Below, one piece after another: positions 31,098 through 35,612 of a DNA stretch of 64,000 nt. The position numbers were made by a program, and so were the translations under genes. The notes below the pieces were generated by a model. It saw only the letters and a program-made list of their open reading frames with translations. It ran no database searches and was not told the origin of the DNA. The stretch is from positions 1 to 64,000 of the forward strand of contig JACTMJ010000020.1 of NCBI GenBank assembly GCA_014584705.1, read 5' to 3'. The stretch comes from Acidobacteriota bacterium (GTDB lineage Bacteria > Acidobacteriota > Terriglobia > Bryobacterales > Bryobacteraceae). The stretch's first letter is position 1, and each line of letters starts with the position of its first letter.

Positions 31098-31186
31098 GCC
31101 CGGGTGGCGAAATCGGCAGACGCAACGGACTTAAAATCCGTTTTCCGGCAACGGGAGTGTGGGTTCAAGTCCCACCCCGGGCACCA
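31098..31186 (+). tRNA. tRNA-Leu (anticodon TAA), island attachment site
   Basis: An 89-nt class II tRNA. The acceptor is GCCCGGG with CCCGGGC, the D-arm GCGAAATCGGCAGACGC, the anticodon stem-loop ACGGA-CTTAAAA-TCCGT, followed by a long variable arm, the T-loop GGTTCAAGTCC and encoded CCA. The gene is intact and uninterrupted. Its 3' half (31132-31186) is repeated exactly at 35558-35612. Confidence 0.97.
31132..31186 (+). repeat. attL-like copy of the 55-bp direct repeat
   Basis: It begins TAAAATCCGTTTTCCGGCAA at the tRNA-Leu anticodon and ends at the encoded CCA. It is identical base for base to 35558-35612. Flanks differ on both sides (T before and AATTA after here; C before and TGAAA after there). 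Confidence 0.93.
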
Positions 31187-31190
31187 AATT

Positions 31191-31508
31191 AGGCGAAATC
31201 GGCAGACGCAACGGACTTAAGCGCAACTTGAGCGCTTGCTGGGAAACCGGCGGTGCGGAACTCCTCAAATTCGGGGAACCCTCCAACATGGCGATCCCGA
31301 GCCAAGCCTTAGTCGGGAAGTTCTCGATTGAAGAACGTGTAGAGACTAGACGGGCAGCACCTGGACCTGGAATGAAACCCAGGTACGGTGCAGGGATAGT
31401 CCAGACCCCAAACCTTTCGCGATGCAAGAGTGACGAAAGCCGTAGCCGGGTTGGAAGATCCGCTTTTCCGCAAGGAGAGTGAGGGCTCAAGTCCCTCCGC
31501 CCGTACCA
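31191..31508 (+). pseudogene. chimeric, intron-split tRNA-Leu(UAA) lacking its 5' acceptor strand
   Basis: The 5' exon (31191-31218) repeats positions 9 to 34 of the adjacent tRNA-Leu exactly. After the intron, the 3' exon (31455-31508) gives anticodon-loop remainder AAGA, stem TCCGC, a leucine-type variable arm, T-arm GAGGG-CTCAAGT-CCCTC and CGCCCGT-ACCA. The 3' acceptor would need ACGGGCG on the 5' side, but the bases there are CCAAATT, including the CCA of the previous tRNA. The acceptor therefore cannot form and the gene is probably not a working tRNA. The 3' exon differs from the neighbouring tRNA-Leu at many positions, so the two halves have different origins. Confidence 0.75.
31219..31454 (+). 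ncRNA. group I intron in tRNA-Leu(UAA) anticodon (cyanobacterial IC3 type)
   Basis: A 236-nt insertion sits after the first anticodon base (CTT|AA), exactly where the cyanobacterial and plastid tRNA-Leu intron lies. The upstream exon CTT can pair with an internal GAG guide (final U.G pair). Core elements follow the Anabaena intron: AAATTCGGGGAA, GATCCCGAGCCAAGCC, GTAGAGACTAGACGGGCAGC (P7 strand GACTA at 31344-31348) and GGGATAGTCCAGAC (P7 partner TAGTC at 31397-31401). P8 pairs GCACC with GGTGC, enclosing CCTGG with CCAGG. The last base is G, as group I splicing requires. It has no ORF and no homing endonuclease. Confidence 0.85.
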
Positions 31509-31609
31509 AGCACCAGACTGTTCAGACTGCCCAGCCGTCCTTTCTGGGGGTATCGTTGCCAAGTCGGGGAGTTATCTAGACAGGGCACAACAAAACATAG
31601 GATCAACGT

Positions 31610-32221
31610 ATGACGGAGCCAATGATCTTGGAACCAGATTGGGCCCAGCCACGACCCACGTTCGCCGACGTACGCGCAATGACGCAGCGTATTGGTCTGG
31701 CTCCTGTGACGTTACCTGAGAAACCGTTTAGCGATTCCCTGCGTTACCTTCGCGAGTCCCACAGCAATGGCGGCGCGCACATCGCGGCATTTGACGTTCC
31801 GCCCGACGCCACTTTCGATTGGTTCGCTTCACGCAATCGCCTTTCAGAGGAGGAACTGATCGACACCCTGATCACTCATCCGTCAATTCGAGAGGCTCTT
31901 AGCGAAATCCGTGTGCCCGAGGTCAAAGCCAACATCGGCCTCTCTCTCGCCGATCCATTTCTCCTCGACGGCAGGCTTGCACGTTGCCTGTATGCTGGCG
32001 GAGCCTACTGGAACGCCAAGAATGACGGGAAAGCTTCAAAGTCCTTGGCTTTGGATGTTTGCGACGCGATGTTCGGCCTACGCTACGGCGAGGTCTCTTT
32101 GTTCGAGAGCTCCCAAGCCTGGACACCTTGGTTTCATGGGATCGCTTGGGACCTAACGGAGATCGTTTTTGATCGCCGCCTTCGCAGACTTTGGGTACTC
32201 GTGGTGACCGACACGGATTAG
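31610..32221 (+). CDS. unknown island protein
   Basis: A 203-residue soluble protein of no family I recognise. It has no signal peptide, membrane helix or repeated motif. Segments that could be conserved are ALSEIRVPEVKANIGLSLAD, LARCLYAGGAYWNAKND and SSQAWTPWFHGIAWDLTEIV, the last rich in aromatics. AGGA lies 8 bases before the ATG. The gene sits between two tRNA-Leu 3'-end copies (31455-31508 and 32242-32263), so it may have arrived as its own small module. A defence, immunity or sensor role is possible but unsupported. Confidence 0.65.
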   Translation: MTEPMILEPDWAQPRPTFADVRAMTQRIGLAPVTLPEKPFSDSLRYLRESHSNGGAHIAAFDVPPDATFDWFASRNRLSEEELIDTLITHPSIREALSEIRVPEVKANIGLSLADPFLLDGRLARCLYAGGAYWNAKNDGKASKSLALDVCDAMFGLRYGEVSLFESSQAWTPWFHGIAWDLTEIVFDRRLRRLWVLVVTDTD

Positions 32222-32241
32222 AGGTAGTCCGCAGGAACGCA

Positions 32242-32263
32242 AGGGCTCAAGTCCCTCCGCCCG
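32242..32263 (+). repeat. third tRNA-Leu 3'-end remnant (22-bp match)
   Basis: AGGGCTCAAGTCCCTCCGCC plus two further bases matches the T-arm and acceptor of the intron-split tRNA (31482-31503) exactly. After that it diverges (CACTA instead of TACCA). Only the T-arm and acceptor remain. With the copy upstream it brackets the unknown gene at 31610. Confidence 0.8.
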
Positions 32264-32304
32264 CACTATCGCTTTTTCCTGGCTCGGTCGAGAGCGATCG
32301 CGTA

Positions 32305-33207
32305 TCAACCGCCGGGCGGTTTTGCGCAGATGTCGCTTATGCATCCACGCAACCAGCCGTGCGCTTGATCGGCTTCCATTCGCGGGTGCCAGAGCAATGA
32401 GACTGCAAATTCCTGAGTGCGAAACGGAAGCGGGAATGTGAACAGGTCGCCACGAATACCTCTTGTGTGCCATTCCGGAACTGTCGCGATCAGGTCCGAG
32501 GAGCGTGCCAAGGCCAAGGCGGTGGAGAAGCCGCCGACGCTCGTCACGATTTCACGTTCAAGACCCACCGACTCCAACGATCCATCAATAGGCCCCTTGT
32601 CGAAGCCGCTCCGCGACACAAGAATATGGCGTCCGGCCGCATAGCGGGCCGGAGTGATCTCTCCCTCGCTCAACGCATGGCCCGGGCGAACGACGCCGAC
32701 GTAGCGATCCCGGAACAGCGCCTTGGCCCGTATCTCCGGGCTCGTCGTATCTTCCACGACACCCGTTTCTAAATCCACGATCCCCTCACGAAGCGGTTTG
32801 CTTTCCTTATCCGGCTTCTGGAGGAAGTGCAATCTTATGCCGGGGGCCTCCACCTCGACCCGCGCGATGAGTTCTGGACCGAAGCTCTCAACAAAGCCCT
32901 CGCTGCTTCGCAAAGCAAACGTTCGTCGCAGCGTCTTAAGATTTAGCTTCTCGACAGGGCGCAAAACCGCCTCGACTGTCGGCACGAGTCGGCTGACGAT
33001 CTCGCGGAGCTCGATGGCTCGCGGGGTAGGAACGAGGCCTCGCCCCGCACGGACCAGGAGAGGATCGCCCATCGTTTCTCGCAGCCGTGCCAGCGCTCGG
33101 CTCACGGCCGAAGGGCTCAATCGCAGTCGCTTCGCCGCTCGGGAAACATTGCTCTCTGTGAGCAGGACATCAAGTGTAGCCAGCAGATTGAAATCCGGGT
33201 GCGACAT
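32305..33207 (-). CDS. LysR family transcriptional regulator
   Basis: A 300-residue LTTR. The N-terminal winged helix-turn-helix reads FNLLATLDVLLTESNVSRAA then LRLSPSAVSRALARLRETMG, and GDPLLVRAGRGLVPTPRA is the linker entry. The effector domain follows, with no cysteine-based sensor evident. It resembles the NodD/LinR-like branch. It is divergent from the cupin and MFS genes, the usual geometry for an LTTR and its targets, with a matching operator at 33252. The frame is open 14 codons further up; MSHPDFNLL is the normal start. Confidence 0.92.
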   Translation of the reverse strand: MSHPDFNLLATLDVLLTESNVSRAAKRLRLSPSAVSRALARLRETMGDPLLVRAGRGLVPTPRAIELREIVSRLVPTVEAVLRPVEKLNLKTLRRTFALRSSEGFVESFGPELIARVEVEAPGIRLHFLQKPDKESKPLREGIVDLETGVVEDTTSPEIRAKALFRDRYVGVVRPGHALSEGEITPARYAAGRHILVSRSGFDKGPIDGSLESVGLEREIVTSVGGFSTALALARSSDLIATVPEWHTRGIRGDLFTFPLPFRTQEFAVSLLWHPRMEADQAHGWLRGCISDICAKPPGG

Positions 33208-33251
33208 GCGCTGACCGTAGCACGGCTTTAGATATGGCGTCAAACGCAATG

Positions 33252-33267
33252 ATTATGTGCAAATAAT
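33252..33267. promoter_or_regulatory. LysR-box dyad ATTAT-N6-ATAAT
   Basis: The dyad ATTAT-GTGCAA-ATAAT contains the T-N11-A core twice and lies 45 bases from the LysR start and 85 bases before the divergent cupin gene. It is the natural binding site for the LysR protein beside it. Confidence 0.6.
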
Positions 33268-33351
33268 GCGCCTTCCGCAATCCCAAATCCCACGTTACGT
33301 TAATTGCATAAGCCTGAATGACTTACATCCAGGCAGGAAGGAACGAAAATC

Positions 33352-33909
33352 ATGAAAGACCATACACTCCAGATGTTCATCGACGGGATCAGGGCGGCCT
33401 GGGGCCCATTAAGTTCGGAAGTCGTGAATCTGTCCCGCCACCAATTGGAAGGCCTCCTGAAGGCGCACGCCGCGGAGGAATGGCTCGAGGCGTTGCATCT
33501 CGAAGGTCTGGCGAACAAGGAATTGTACCGGGATCCGTCCCACGGCTTTGTCCTGCTGGCGCACACGGAACAAACGGGCCAGTACAGGCCACCTCACGAC
33601 CACGGCCGGGGCTGGGTCATCTATGGGGTGCAGCAAGGCGAAATGGAGATCAGCACATACGTGCGGGTTCAAGAACCCGGCGGCAGCGAGAGGCTCGTCC
33701 TCCGGGAAACATATCTGCTTCACGCCGGCCAGACACGGGTTTATTTGCCGGGCGATATCCACGACACGAGGTGTACAAGAGGCCCCGTACTCTACTACCG
33801 CTTCACCGACCGCGACCTGAAAAAGGAAGAGAGCGAGGGACACAAGATAACGCGGTATGTCCAGAAGAATGGCGTCTGGACGGGAGGCGCGTCATGCCAG
33901 ATCTCTTAA
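33352..33909 (+). CDS. cupin-fold metal protein (cysteine-dioxygenase-like)
   Basis: A 185-residue cupin. Metal ligands are visible as PPHDHGRGWVIYGVQQGEME (two His and a later Glu) and PGDIHDTRC (third His), the pattern of the predicted metal-dependent COG5553/cysteine-dioxygenase group. It could be a small-molecule oxygenase or an isomerase. AGGAAGGAA lies 8 bases before the ATG. It overlaps the transporter start by 16 bases, so the two are translationally coupled; the product may be exported or the enzyme may detoxify the transporter substrate. Confidence 0.8.
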   Translation: MKDHTLQMFIDGIRAAWGPLSSEVVNLSRHQLEGLLKAHAAEEWLEALHLEGLANKELYRDPSHGFVLLAHTEQTGQYRPPHDHGRGWVIYGVQQGEMEISTYVRVQEPGGSERLVLRETYLLHAGQTRVYLPGDIHDTRCTRGPVLYYRFTDRDLKKEESEGHKITRYVQKNGVWTGGASCQIS

Positions 33910-35411
33910 CCGGCACCGCCGAACACCCGGAATCGCCTGTTTTAGGGCACGAGGGCGGGCGTCCTTCCTCGACATCCGCACAGGCGGATGCAACGAAGAC
34001 AAAGTCCGGAGAAACCACGTCGGGGCTGCGCGGAACACGGGGCGTACTCGCAGTCGCATCGGTTCTCGCCGCAATGGTTCTCGTGGTGCTCGATGCGGCC
34101 ATCGCCAATGTGGCTCTGCCGACGATCGCACGAGAGCTGCGCGTCACGCCCGCAATGTCGGTCCTGGTGATCACCGCCTATCAGATGGCGCTGGTGATGG
34201 CGCTATTTGCCTGTGCGGCCCTCGGAGACAGTCTTGGACATAAGCGTGTCTTCATCTCGGGTGTCGTCGTGTTTGTCGGCGCGTCGGCGCTCTGCGCGTT
34301 GTCGCCGTCCTTGCCCTGGCTCGTGGCCGCCCGCATCCTACAGGGGTTCGGGGGAGCCGCTGTCATGGCGCTAGGGGTCGCACTCCTGCGCTTTACGGTA
34401 TCACCCCAGCGGCTGGGTGCCGCCATCAGTTGGAACGCGCTCGCGGTCGCGCTCTCGTCTGCCATCGGTCCTTCGATTGGCGCGGCGGTACTGTCCGTCG
34501 CAAGCTGGCCCTGGCTCTTCGCCGTGAACCTGCCCGTGGGCATGCTCGTGCTGTTTGCTTCCCGTGCTCTCCCCCATGTAGCCGGCACGAAGCGCCCTCT
34601 GGACATGCGCAGCGTGGCGCTTAATGCGGGTGCATTCGCTTCTTTGGTCATGGGCTCGGAGCTACTGCCGGAACACCCGGTGCGAGCGGTTGCGCTGCTG
34701 GCCTTCGCCGCCATGCTCTTTCTTGTGCTCCTCCGCCGAGAAGCGCCGAAAGCTGCACCGCTCATCCCCCTCGATTTGCTCCGCGGTAGAGCATTCCGGA
34801 TTTCAGTGACCGCTTCGGTTCTCTGCTTTTCGGGCGTAGCCGCGGCAATGGTGGCATTGCCCTTTTATCTGCAGCACGGACTCGGCCAGAGTGCTTGGGA
34901 AACAGGCCTCTATATGACGCCATGGCCGCTCACCGTTGCCATAGCGGCGCCGCTGGCTGAGCGTCTTTCGAACCGGCTATCGACTGCCTGGCTCTGTGCG
35001 ACAGGCGGCGTACTTCTCTCTATCGGCCTGGGGACCACGGCTCTGTTGCCGCTTGATGGCGGCGTGGCGGCACTCACACCTCTGACCATGGTTTCCGGCT
35101 TCGGCTTCGGGCTCTTCAACGTTCCCAACAACCGGACGATGTTCCTCTCCGCTCCGAGCGACCGCAGCGGCGCCGCAGGGGGTATGCAGGGAACTGCACG
35201 CCTGACGGGCCAAACGGCGGGCGCCCTGACCATGACCCTGCTATTCACCGTGACATCCGTCGACGCAGCACCCCGATTCGGCCTGGAGATCGCGGCTCTC
35301 CTGACGCTGGCGGCGGGACTAGTGAGTACGTTGCATTTCAATGCAAGTTCGGAAGCACCTGTTTCCGGGCGTGCTGGACGCTCGGTTCAGCTCGTAGAAG
35401 TGGGGGATTAA
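33894..35411 (+). CDS. MFS efflux transporter, DHA2 (EmrB/QacA-like) family
   Basis: A 505-residue transporter with about 14 predicted membrane helices. Motifs are LDAAIANVALPTIARELRVT (helix 1, motif D1), GDSLGHKRVF (motif A) and RILQGFGGAAVMALGVALL (motif B/C region). The family exports drugs and toxic metabolites by proton antiport. The first 50 residues are a hydrophilic, low-complexity lead. I chose the ATG at 33894 because it follows the cupin gene closely; the open frame upstream is the cupin antiphase. Confidence 0.88.
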   Translation: MPDLLTGTAEHPESPVLGHEGGRPSSTSAQADATKTKSGETTSGLRGTRGVLAVASVLAAMVLVVLDAAIANVALPTIARELRVTPAMSVLVITAYQMALVMALFACAALGDSLGHKRVFISGVVVFVGASALCALSPSLPWLVAARILQGFGGAAVMALGVALLRFTVSPQRLGAAISWNALAVALSSAIGPSIGAAVLSVASWPWLFAVNLPVGMLVLFASRALPHVAGTKRPLDMRSVALNAGAFASLVMGSELLPEHPVRAVALLAFAAMLFLVLLRREAPKAAPLIPLDLLRGRAFRISVTASVLCFSGVAAAMVALPFYLQHGLGQSAWETGLYMTPWPLTVAIAAPLAERLSNRLSTAWLCATGGVLLSIGLGTTALLPLDGGVAALTPLTMVSGFGFGLFNVPNNRTMFLSAPSDRSGAAGGMQGTARLTGQTAGALTMTLLFTVTSVDAAPRFGLEIAALLTLAAGLVSTLHFNASSEAPVSGRAGRSVQLVEVGD

Positions 35412-35557
35412 CGACAAAGTGCTTGCCGGAAAAGAGATCTCGTCAGATCTTGTCATGGTGGCGGGCCCCGGATTCTCGCATTGGCTTACGCGGTTTCTTA
35501 GCCATCGGGAGACAACACTTGTGTTTTCCATTTGATGACGGCATGCGGAAAATGACC

Positions 35558-35612
35558 TAAAATCCGTTTTCCGGCAACGGGAGTGTGGGTTCAAGTCCCA
35601 CCCCGGGCACCA
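35558..35612 (+). repeat. attR-like copy of the 55-bp direct repeat
   Basis: An exact copy of the tRNA-Leu 3' half with no 5' half upstream (preceding bases GGAAAATGACC are not tRNA). It marks the far end of the island. I see no gene in 35412-35557 or in 35613-35870. Confidence 0.93.

Follow-up and report, generated by a model that had tools for sequence, protein, structure and literature searches.

The window (the whole stretch of DNA analysed, 64,000 nucleotides in length, from a soil acidobacterium) contains an intact, intronless gene for tRNA-Leu(UAA) and, beginning 5 bp downstream and reading in the same direction, a second copy that is interrupted by an intron (Table 1). The intact gene, which was recognised by ARAGORN and bears out an earlier claim that the host's own tRNA-Leu is free of introns, is 100% identical to the gene of the same-genus genome G003. 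In the interrupted copy, exon 1 ends ...GGACTT at 31218 and exon 2 begins AAGATCC at 31455, which places the insertion exactly where the first-pass annotation had put it, after the first anticodon base (U34/A35), a position shared with the relatives described below. The last intron base is G (G31454), as was also claimed, and U31218 and G31230 form the wobble pair expected at a 5′ splice site, so that the copy has both the U·G pair and the terminal G of a group I intron. About 7–8 of the first exon bases, and with them the 5′ acceptor strand, are missing: intact relatives have GCGGGCGT as the complete start of this strand, where the window reads AATTA, and the 27 nt left of exon 1 are the beginning of a 29-bp stretch in which the copy and the neighbouring native gene are identical.

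Table 1. Features of the tRNA-Leu(UAA) island, in window coordinates.
Feature	Position	Strand	Basis or remark
Intact tRNA-Leu(UAA) gene with no intron, bounding the island on the left (attL)	31098–31186	+	ARAGORN; RF00005, 61.5 bits
Left copy of the 55-bp repeat, covering the 3′ half of the tRNA (anticodon onwards)	31132–31186	+	blastn
AATTA, replacing the 5′ acceptor strand of the interrupted copy	31187–31191	+	sequence
Exon 1 of the intron-bearing tRNA-Leu(UAA), 5′-truncated, ending at U34	31192–31218	+	
Group I intron of 236 nt, U34/A35 position, last base G	31219–31454	+	
P3 5′ strand, CUCCUC	31261–31266	+	third base mismatched
P7 5′ strand, GACUA (guanosine site)	31344–31348	+	last pair covaries AU/UA/GC
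P3 3′ strand, GGGCAG	31352–31357	+	
P8 strands, CACC / GGUG	31358–31361 / 31387–31390	+	full pairing
P7 3′ strand, UAGUC	31397–31401	+	
Exon 2 of the intron-bearing copy, through CCA	31455–31508	+	
203-aa ORF	31610–32221	+	weak DUF6183 match
Further remnant of an intron-type tRNA 3′ half, CCGCCCGCACTA	32228–32266	+	
LysR-type regulator, cargo	32305–33249	-	Pfam; 83% identical (aa) to its G245 counterpart
MFS transporter, cargo	33318–35411	+	Pfam; 74% identical (aa) to its G245 counterpart
Right copy of the 55-bp repeat, displaced native tRNA-Leu(UAA) 3′ half (attR)	35558–35612	+	

Judged by homology and structure, the insertion is a group I intron, as the first-pass annotation had proposed. 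That annotation held that the lack of an RF00028 match above threshold would count against it, and this, taken literally, is what was found: at the default or gathering threshold cmsearch reported no RF00028 match to the window intron, which scored 33.5 bits against a gathering value of 50. The homology is nevertheless real. A laxer search aligned the intron end to end with RF00028 (E = 9.5e-7 in 701 nt), and a covariance-type model of our own, built from an alignment of the core sequences of 18 relatives (the window among them), gave 114 bits (E = 6.6e-27). Compensatory pairing of P3–P8, named at the outset as the other requirement, is strongly evident in the same 18-sequence alignment: over the 26 pairs of P3, P4, P5, P6, P7 and P8, 98.1% of cells are paired, with 32 double-change cells and eight pairs showing double changes, a level of pairing that was matched in none of 500 shuffles and that fell to 28–43% in slid controls. 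As claimed, P7 and P8 are fully paired in the window copy; P3, however, is not complete, having a C31263 × C31355 mismatch, and there is one further mismatch in P6. The core strings quoted in the first-pass annotation, and said there to follow the Anabaena tRNA-Leu intron, are present in the window.

The two tRNA genes mark the left end of a 4.4-kb island (31187–35612) that is bounded by a 55-bp exact direct repeat (blastn), and direct tRNA repeats at both ends are a mark of integrative elements that target tRNA genes. Genome G003 is collinear with the window on both sides, with the left flank up to the tRNA and with the right flank from 35857 on. A site-specific recombinase, a further mark of such elements, was sought in the island by Pfam and similarity searches, and none was found. 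The nearest counterpart is an element of another genus (G245), which also lies in tRNA-Leu(UAA): its intron tRNA is 83% identical to that of the window and its LysR–MFS segment 82% identical in DNA over 3.07 kb, and no similarity between the flanks of the two was detectable by blastn or tblastx. Shared intron and cargo between unrelated flanks imply that the intron moved with the island, and together with the 55-bp repeat they uphold the lateral, island-borne origin proposed earlier. The accompanying view of an intron tRNA next to an att site on an island holds for the island and its repeat, but the copy itself is broken, a relic and not a working gene. The 203-aa ORF between the intron tRNA and the LysR gene is an extra insert, absent from the G245 element and 81% identical to an ORF of another Bryobacteraceae genome; it was considered as element machinery and rejected, its relatives lying in unrelated places without tRNA or intron.

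Several features point to decay of the window copy. When it was spliced in silico, ARAGORN called no tRNA, whereas nearly all of the complete relatives yielded tRNA-Leu(taa) after the same treatment. The only others to fail were G200b, likewise truncated, and G399a, whose sequence is cut off by the end of a contig. In the set of introns amenable to scoring, a mismatched P3 is confined to the window and G200b, both of them 5′-truncated copies. The terminal branch of the window intron (0.34) is among the longer ones of its clade, the median over all rows being 0.12. (An A27–C43 mismatch in the anticodon stem was dropped as a sign of decay, many intact relatives being mismatched there too.) On these grounds (the truncated 5′ end, the failure to give a tRNA, the P3 mismatch and the long branch) the copy is predicted not to be a usable tRNA gene, the intron appears to be under relaxed constraint, and the locus is with high probability a relic of the family of integrative elements considered next; the P3 mismatch also makes guanosine self-splicing of this copy doubtful. 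The juxtaposition of an intact native tRNA and a truncated intron tRNA could have arisen by recombination across the 29-bp identity, or it may represent an attR-like end such as that seen in G587.

Matches to the core model were found in 28 of the 237 genomes of the family, representing 17 of its 76 genera, several of the compared genomes being drafts. Around most of the introns in tRNA-Leu the same layout recurs: the 5′ half of the native gene is followed by a conserved left end (GTCCGATCGGGTCAG...), a complete intron-bearing tRNA-Leu(UAA) gene and cargo, and then, where the contig extends that far, by the native 3′ half. The host gene, with a GCCCGGG acceptor and a 5′ half ending CTTAAAA, is distinct from the intron gene, with its GCGGGCG acceptor. 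The left junction, with native 5′ half, GTCCGATCGGGTCAG... and complete intron tRNA, occurs in G010, G207, G216, G217, G249 and G250, with divergent forms in G187, G194, G195, G203 and G245, and the left-junction sequence CGGACTTAAAAGTCCG is a perfect palindrome. The native gene is split in the anticodon loop, by elements that span 4–33 kb: the halves are 4.1 kb apart in G010, 4.0 in G217, 8.9 in G194, 27.8 in G602 (where GCCCGAG of the 5′ half pairs with CTCGGGC of the 3′ half) and 33.3 in G587. In all five of these genomes the joined halves were called as tRNA-Leu(taa) and neither half alone was called. The intron sits exactly inside the interval common to both host halves, CTT^AAAA. Inspection alone identified the cargo as ArsR–rhodanese, SQR-like and methyltransferase genes in G010, efflux genes in G194 and an outer-membrane receptor in G217. 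We regard it as very probable that these are a family of integrative elements inserting in the anticodon loop of the host tRNA-Leu(UAA) gene.

Variants of this arrangement were also seen. Tandem pairs of intron-tRNA elements, about 3.1 kb apart, are present in G207 and G200 (L140 and L144), the second left end being joined directly to the right end of the first element. Sibling elements in G399 and G446 (L186 and L214) apparently lie in tRNA-Leu(CAA), the 5′ half of which ends GGACTCAAAATCG; in L186 this end is followed by a recombinase and an intron-bearing tRNA-Leu(UAA). In G008 (L099, 8834–8920 and 12056–12095), an additional 5′ half of the native tRNA-Leu gene is separated by a 3-kb insert from a complete, intronless gene; the insert is an element of this site that has no intron.

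A gene for a tyrosine recombinase lies directly upstream of the intron tRNA in several cases in two acidobacterial families. Among the relatives, recombinases are present in G196, G249, G399, G587 and G602. In the second of the two families, which belongs to the same class as the first, the recombinase or its remains are just upstream of the intron tRNA in all five genomes, with a host tRNA 5′ half just before the recombinase in four of them, and the full-length proteins are 64–69% identical to that of G196. On a Bradyrhizobium plasmid, an intron tRNA-Leu is immediately preceded by a fragment of this recombinase. Pfam matches the catalytic domain weakly: one protein hit PF00589 at E = 3e-4, and the other gave SAM-like domains only. 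The 27.8-kb element of G602 encodes in addition a TrwC relaxase, a TrwB-type coupling protein and ParB, and is the only one to combine relaxase and recombinase in the manner of an integrative and mobilizable element, which the window island does not. Many of the 4-kb elements, that of the window included, have no recombinase, so the gene has been lost from them or they are mobilised in trans. The seven alphaproteobacterial relatives of the recombinase were expected to carry the intron, and none has it; several, on plasmids, adjoin ordinary intronless 3′ halves of other tRNAs, and the conventional layout, in which the target gene is restored, is therefore probably the older state.

Where the elements occur, the host seems to depend on them. 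An intact intronless UAA gene was found in only three of the 24 genomes of the family that have an intron in tRNA-Leu (the window genome, G000, with G200 and G206), compared with 11 of 13 intron-free genomes, each at least 90% complete; in the second family the corresponding figures are one of five and 11 of 11. Absence of intact genes was judged by pattern and blast searches, and the Fisher p-values (3e-5 and 0.003, respectively) should be read in the knowledge that related genomes are not independent and that drafts may lack genes. In such genomes the intron-bearing substitute is the apparent sole source of tRNA-Leu(UAA), and, there being no other UAA gene, codon reading implies that the intron must be spliced if UUA is to be read. 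ARAGORN run without an intron search misses the intron-bearing genes, and for this reason such genomes look devoid of an essential tRNA.

How might these observations be connected? The recombinase would use the anticodon stem-loop as its crossover site and the arms of the stem as binding sites, and integration would destroy the essential host tRNA-Leu(UAA) gene, the cell being rescued by the tRNA gene that the element brings. A self-splicing intron in that gene would permit a normal tRNA to be made while parting the two arms of the recombinase site, and the replacement might thereby be safe from recutting or from occupation by a sibling element. The window would then be an element that has kept its LysR–MFS cargo and lost the 5′ end of its intron tRNA, and that has an intact native gene at its left boundary. 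We favour this explanation, of the window as a decayed member of a family of elements that split tRNA-Leu(UAA) and carry an intron-bearing replacement in which the site is hidden, with a probability of roughly 0.75; the intact native gene at the left end of the island, unlike the typical split layout, was counted against it, as were the many 4-kb elements that encode no recombinase, the weak Pfam match of the catalytic domain and the draft state of several genomes. As to its parts, it is rather likely that the destruction of an essential tRNA gene and its substitution by a copy immunised by a self-splicing intron in the recombination site constitute a distinct strategy, and the odds that the intron masks the att site are even or slightly better. 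Remnants such as 32228–32266 suggest that intron-type tRNA genes are themselves sometimes targeted, which was likewise counted against the favoured explanation.

The intron could be only a passenger, the element needing a spare tRNA-Leu(UAA) gene and having happened to capture a copy that contained one. Group I introns do occur in tRNA genes unaccompanied by a recombinase, both in phages and in further acidobacterial lineages, but across scattered genera the replacement gene always bears the intron, exactly within the interval common to the host halves, and related recombinases on alphaproteobacterial plasmids adjoin an ordinary intronless tRNA 3′ half; we consider this explanation unlikely, at perhaps one chance in four. 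Less probable still, and improbable in its own right, is that the intron tRNA is kept in reserve for when tRNAs are cut by defences or toxins, a part that phage-borne tRNAs may play; many virus contigs have intron-bearing tRNA genes of several kinds, but most of the elements discussed here destroy the host gene, so that their copy is a replacement and not an addition. Vertical inheritance of an ancestral acidobacterial intron, mostly lost, with islands later inserted beside the survivors, would accord with the clustering of the intron tree by family, but is already contradicted and very improbable: in intron genomes the intron gene (GCGGGCG) lies between the split halves of a native gene that differs from it (GCCCGGG), intron and cargo but no flank are common to the window island and G245, and the same pairing of recombinase and intron is found on the Bradyrhizobium plasmid. 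That the window copy still works, being spliced out of the transcript of the tRNA gene just upstream, is scarcely credible, since intact P4, P5, P7 and P8 and a favourable position have to be set against a missing 5′ acceptor strand, no tRNA call after splicing, a broken P3 and a long branch.

The first-pass annotation described the intron class as typical of cyanobacteria and plastids and as scattered in other bacteria; the second part of this needs amendment, given its presence in 28 of the 237 family genomes and on plasmids and in viruses. The same class occurs on alphaproteobacterial and enterobacterial plasmids. Complete intron-bearing tRNA-Leu(UAA) genes, unannotated in the plasmid gene table, are present in pCTX-M3 (L005, 5994–6292), L003 and L004; the pCTX-M3-type gene adjoins an aac(3)-IId / AAA-ATPase / DUF3883 module and is matched in about 1,250 plasmid records. 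A recombinase was expected upstream of this gene, and no similarity to one was found there. Among virus contigs, 52 stretches from IMG/VR (L012–L063) have the same intron core, most in tRNA-Leu(UAA) and some in apparently different tRNA genes; phage records gave no DNA match. Within the acidobacterial family, group I introns were also seen in tRNA genes with a CAU anticodon, of Met or Ile type and of initiator type (L154, L155 and L156 in G135, G134 and G132; L159 in G228).

The closest known system, the cyanobacterial and plastid tRNA-Leu(UAA) intron of Anabaena type, is alike in host gene, anticodon-loop position, small size and, according to the first-pass annotation, core strings. The introns described here share its U34/A35 position, and the exons of nearly all complete relatives, although not those of the window copy, form a tRNA when joined; they differ in occurring in Acidobacteriota and on plasmids, in integrative elements beside a recombinase gene, and in a patchy rather than lineage-wide distribution. 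Archaeal tRNA introns are spliced by proteins. In Caldiarchaeum, a tRNA-Thr(GGU) intron is reported to have been delivered by a mobile element and is proposed to block further invasion (PMC3293823); Randau and Soll had suggested that a tRNA gene gains resistance to integration by being disrupted (their proposal is set out in PMC3293823 and PMC4390854). There too a mobile element brings an intron-containing tRNA sequence, but the archaeal intron, which is not of group I, enters the host gene by attP × attB recombination, whereas here a group I intron interrupts a complete replacement gene, distinct from the host gene, which stays split in two. Integrative and mobilizable elements that use a tyrosine recombinase and target tRNA genes have the recombinase, the target and the direct repeats in common with the present elements, and in G602 the relaxase and coupling protein as well; conventionally, however, the target is made whole by a 3′ half that such elements place at the junction, whereas here it is left split and another gene is supplied. 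The group I introns of the tmRNA T-loop, tRNA-Arg and tRNA-Ile are likewise small self-splicing introns in structural RNA genes, but in the literature searched there is no described link to a recombinase targeting the interrupted gene. Published records of group I introns in tRNA genes cover cyanobacteria and some proteobacteria (PMC4033280); those of tmRNA introns extend to 21 phyla (PMC11915505). Full-text searches of open-licence papers, which are weak evidence on such a point, revealed no description of a bacterial element in which a tRNA with a group I intron replaces the gene that the element splits.

The persistence of small group I introns in the anticodon loops of tRNA genes has long called for an explanation. 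The present elements tie such an intron to a concrete selective setting, in which a recombinase targets the same loop, the host gene is inactivated and its substitute bears an intron, and it becomes possible to test whether tRNA genes are protected from integration by introns. The same intron class also travels in the aac(3)-IId plasmid modules of enterobacteria. If the explanation that we favour is true, the host would depend on the element and on its ribozyme and would not survive if the element were lost imprecisely.
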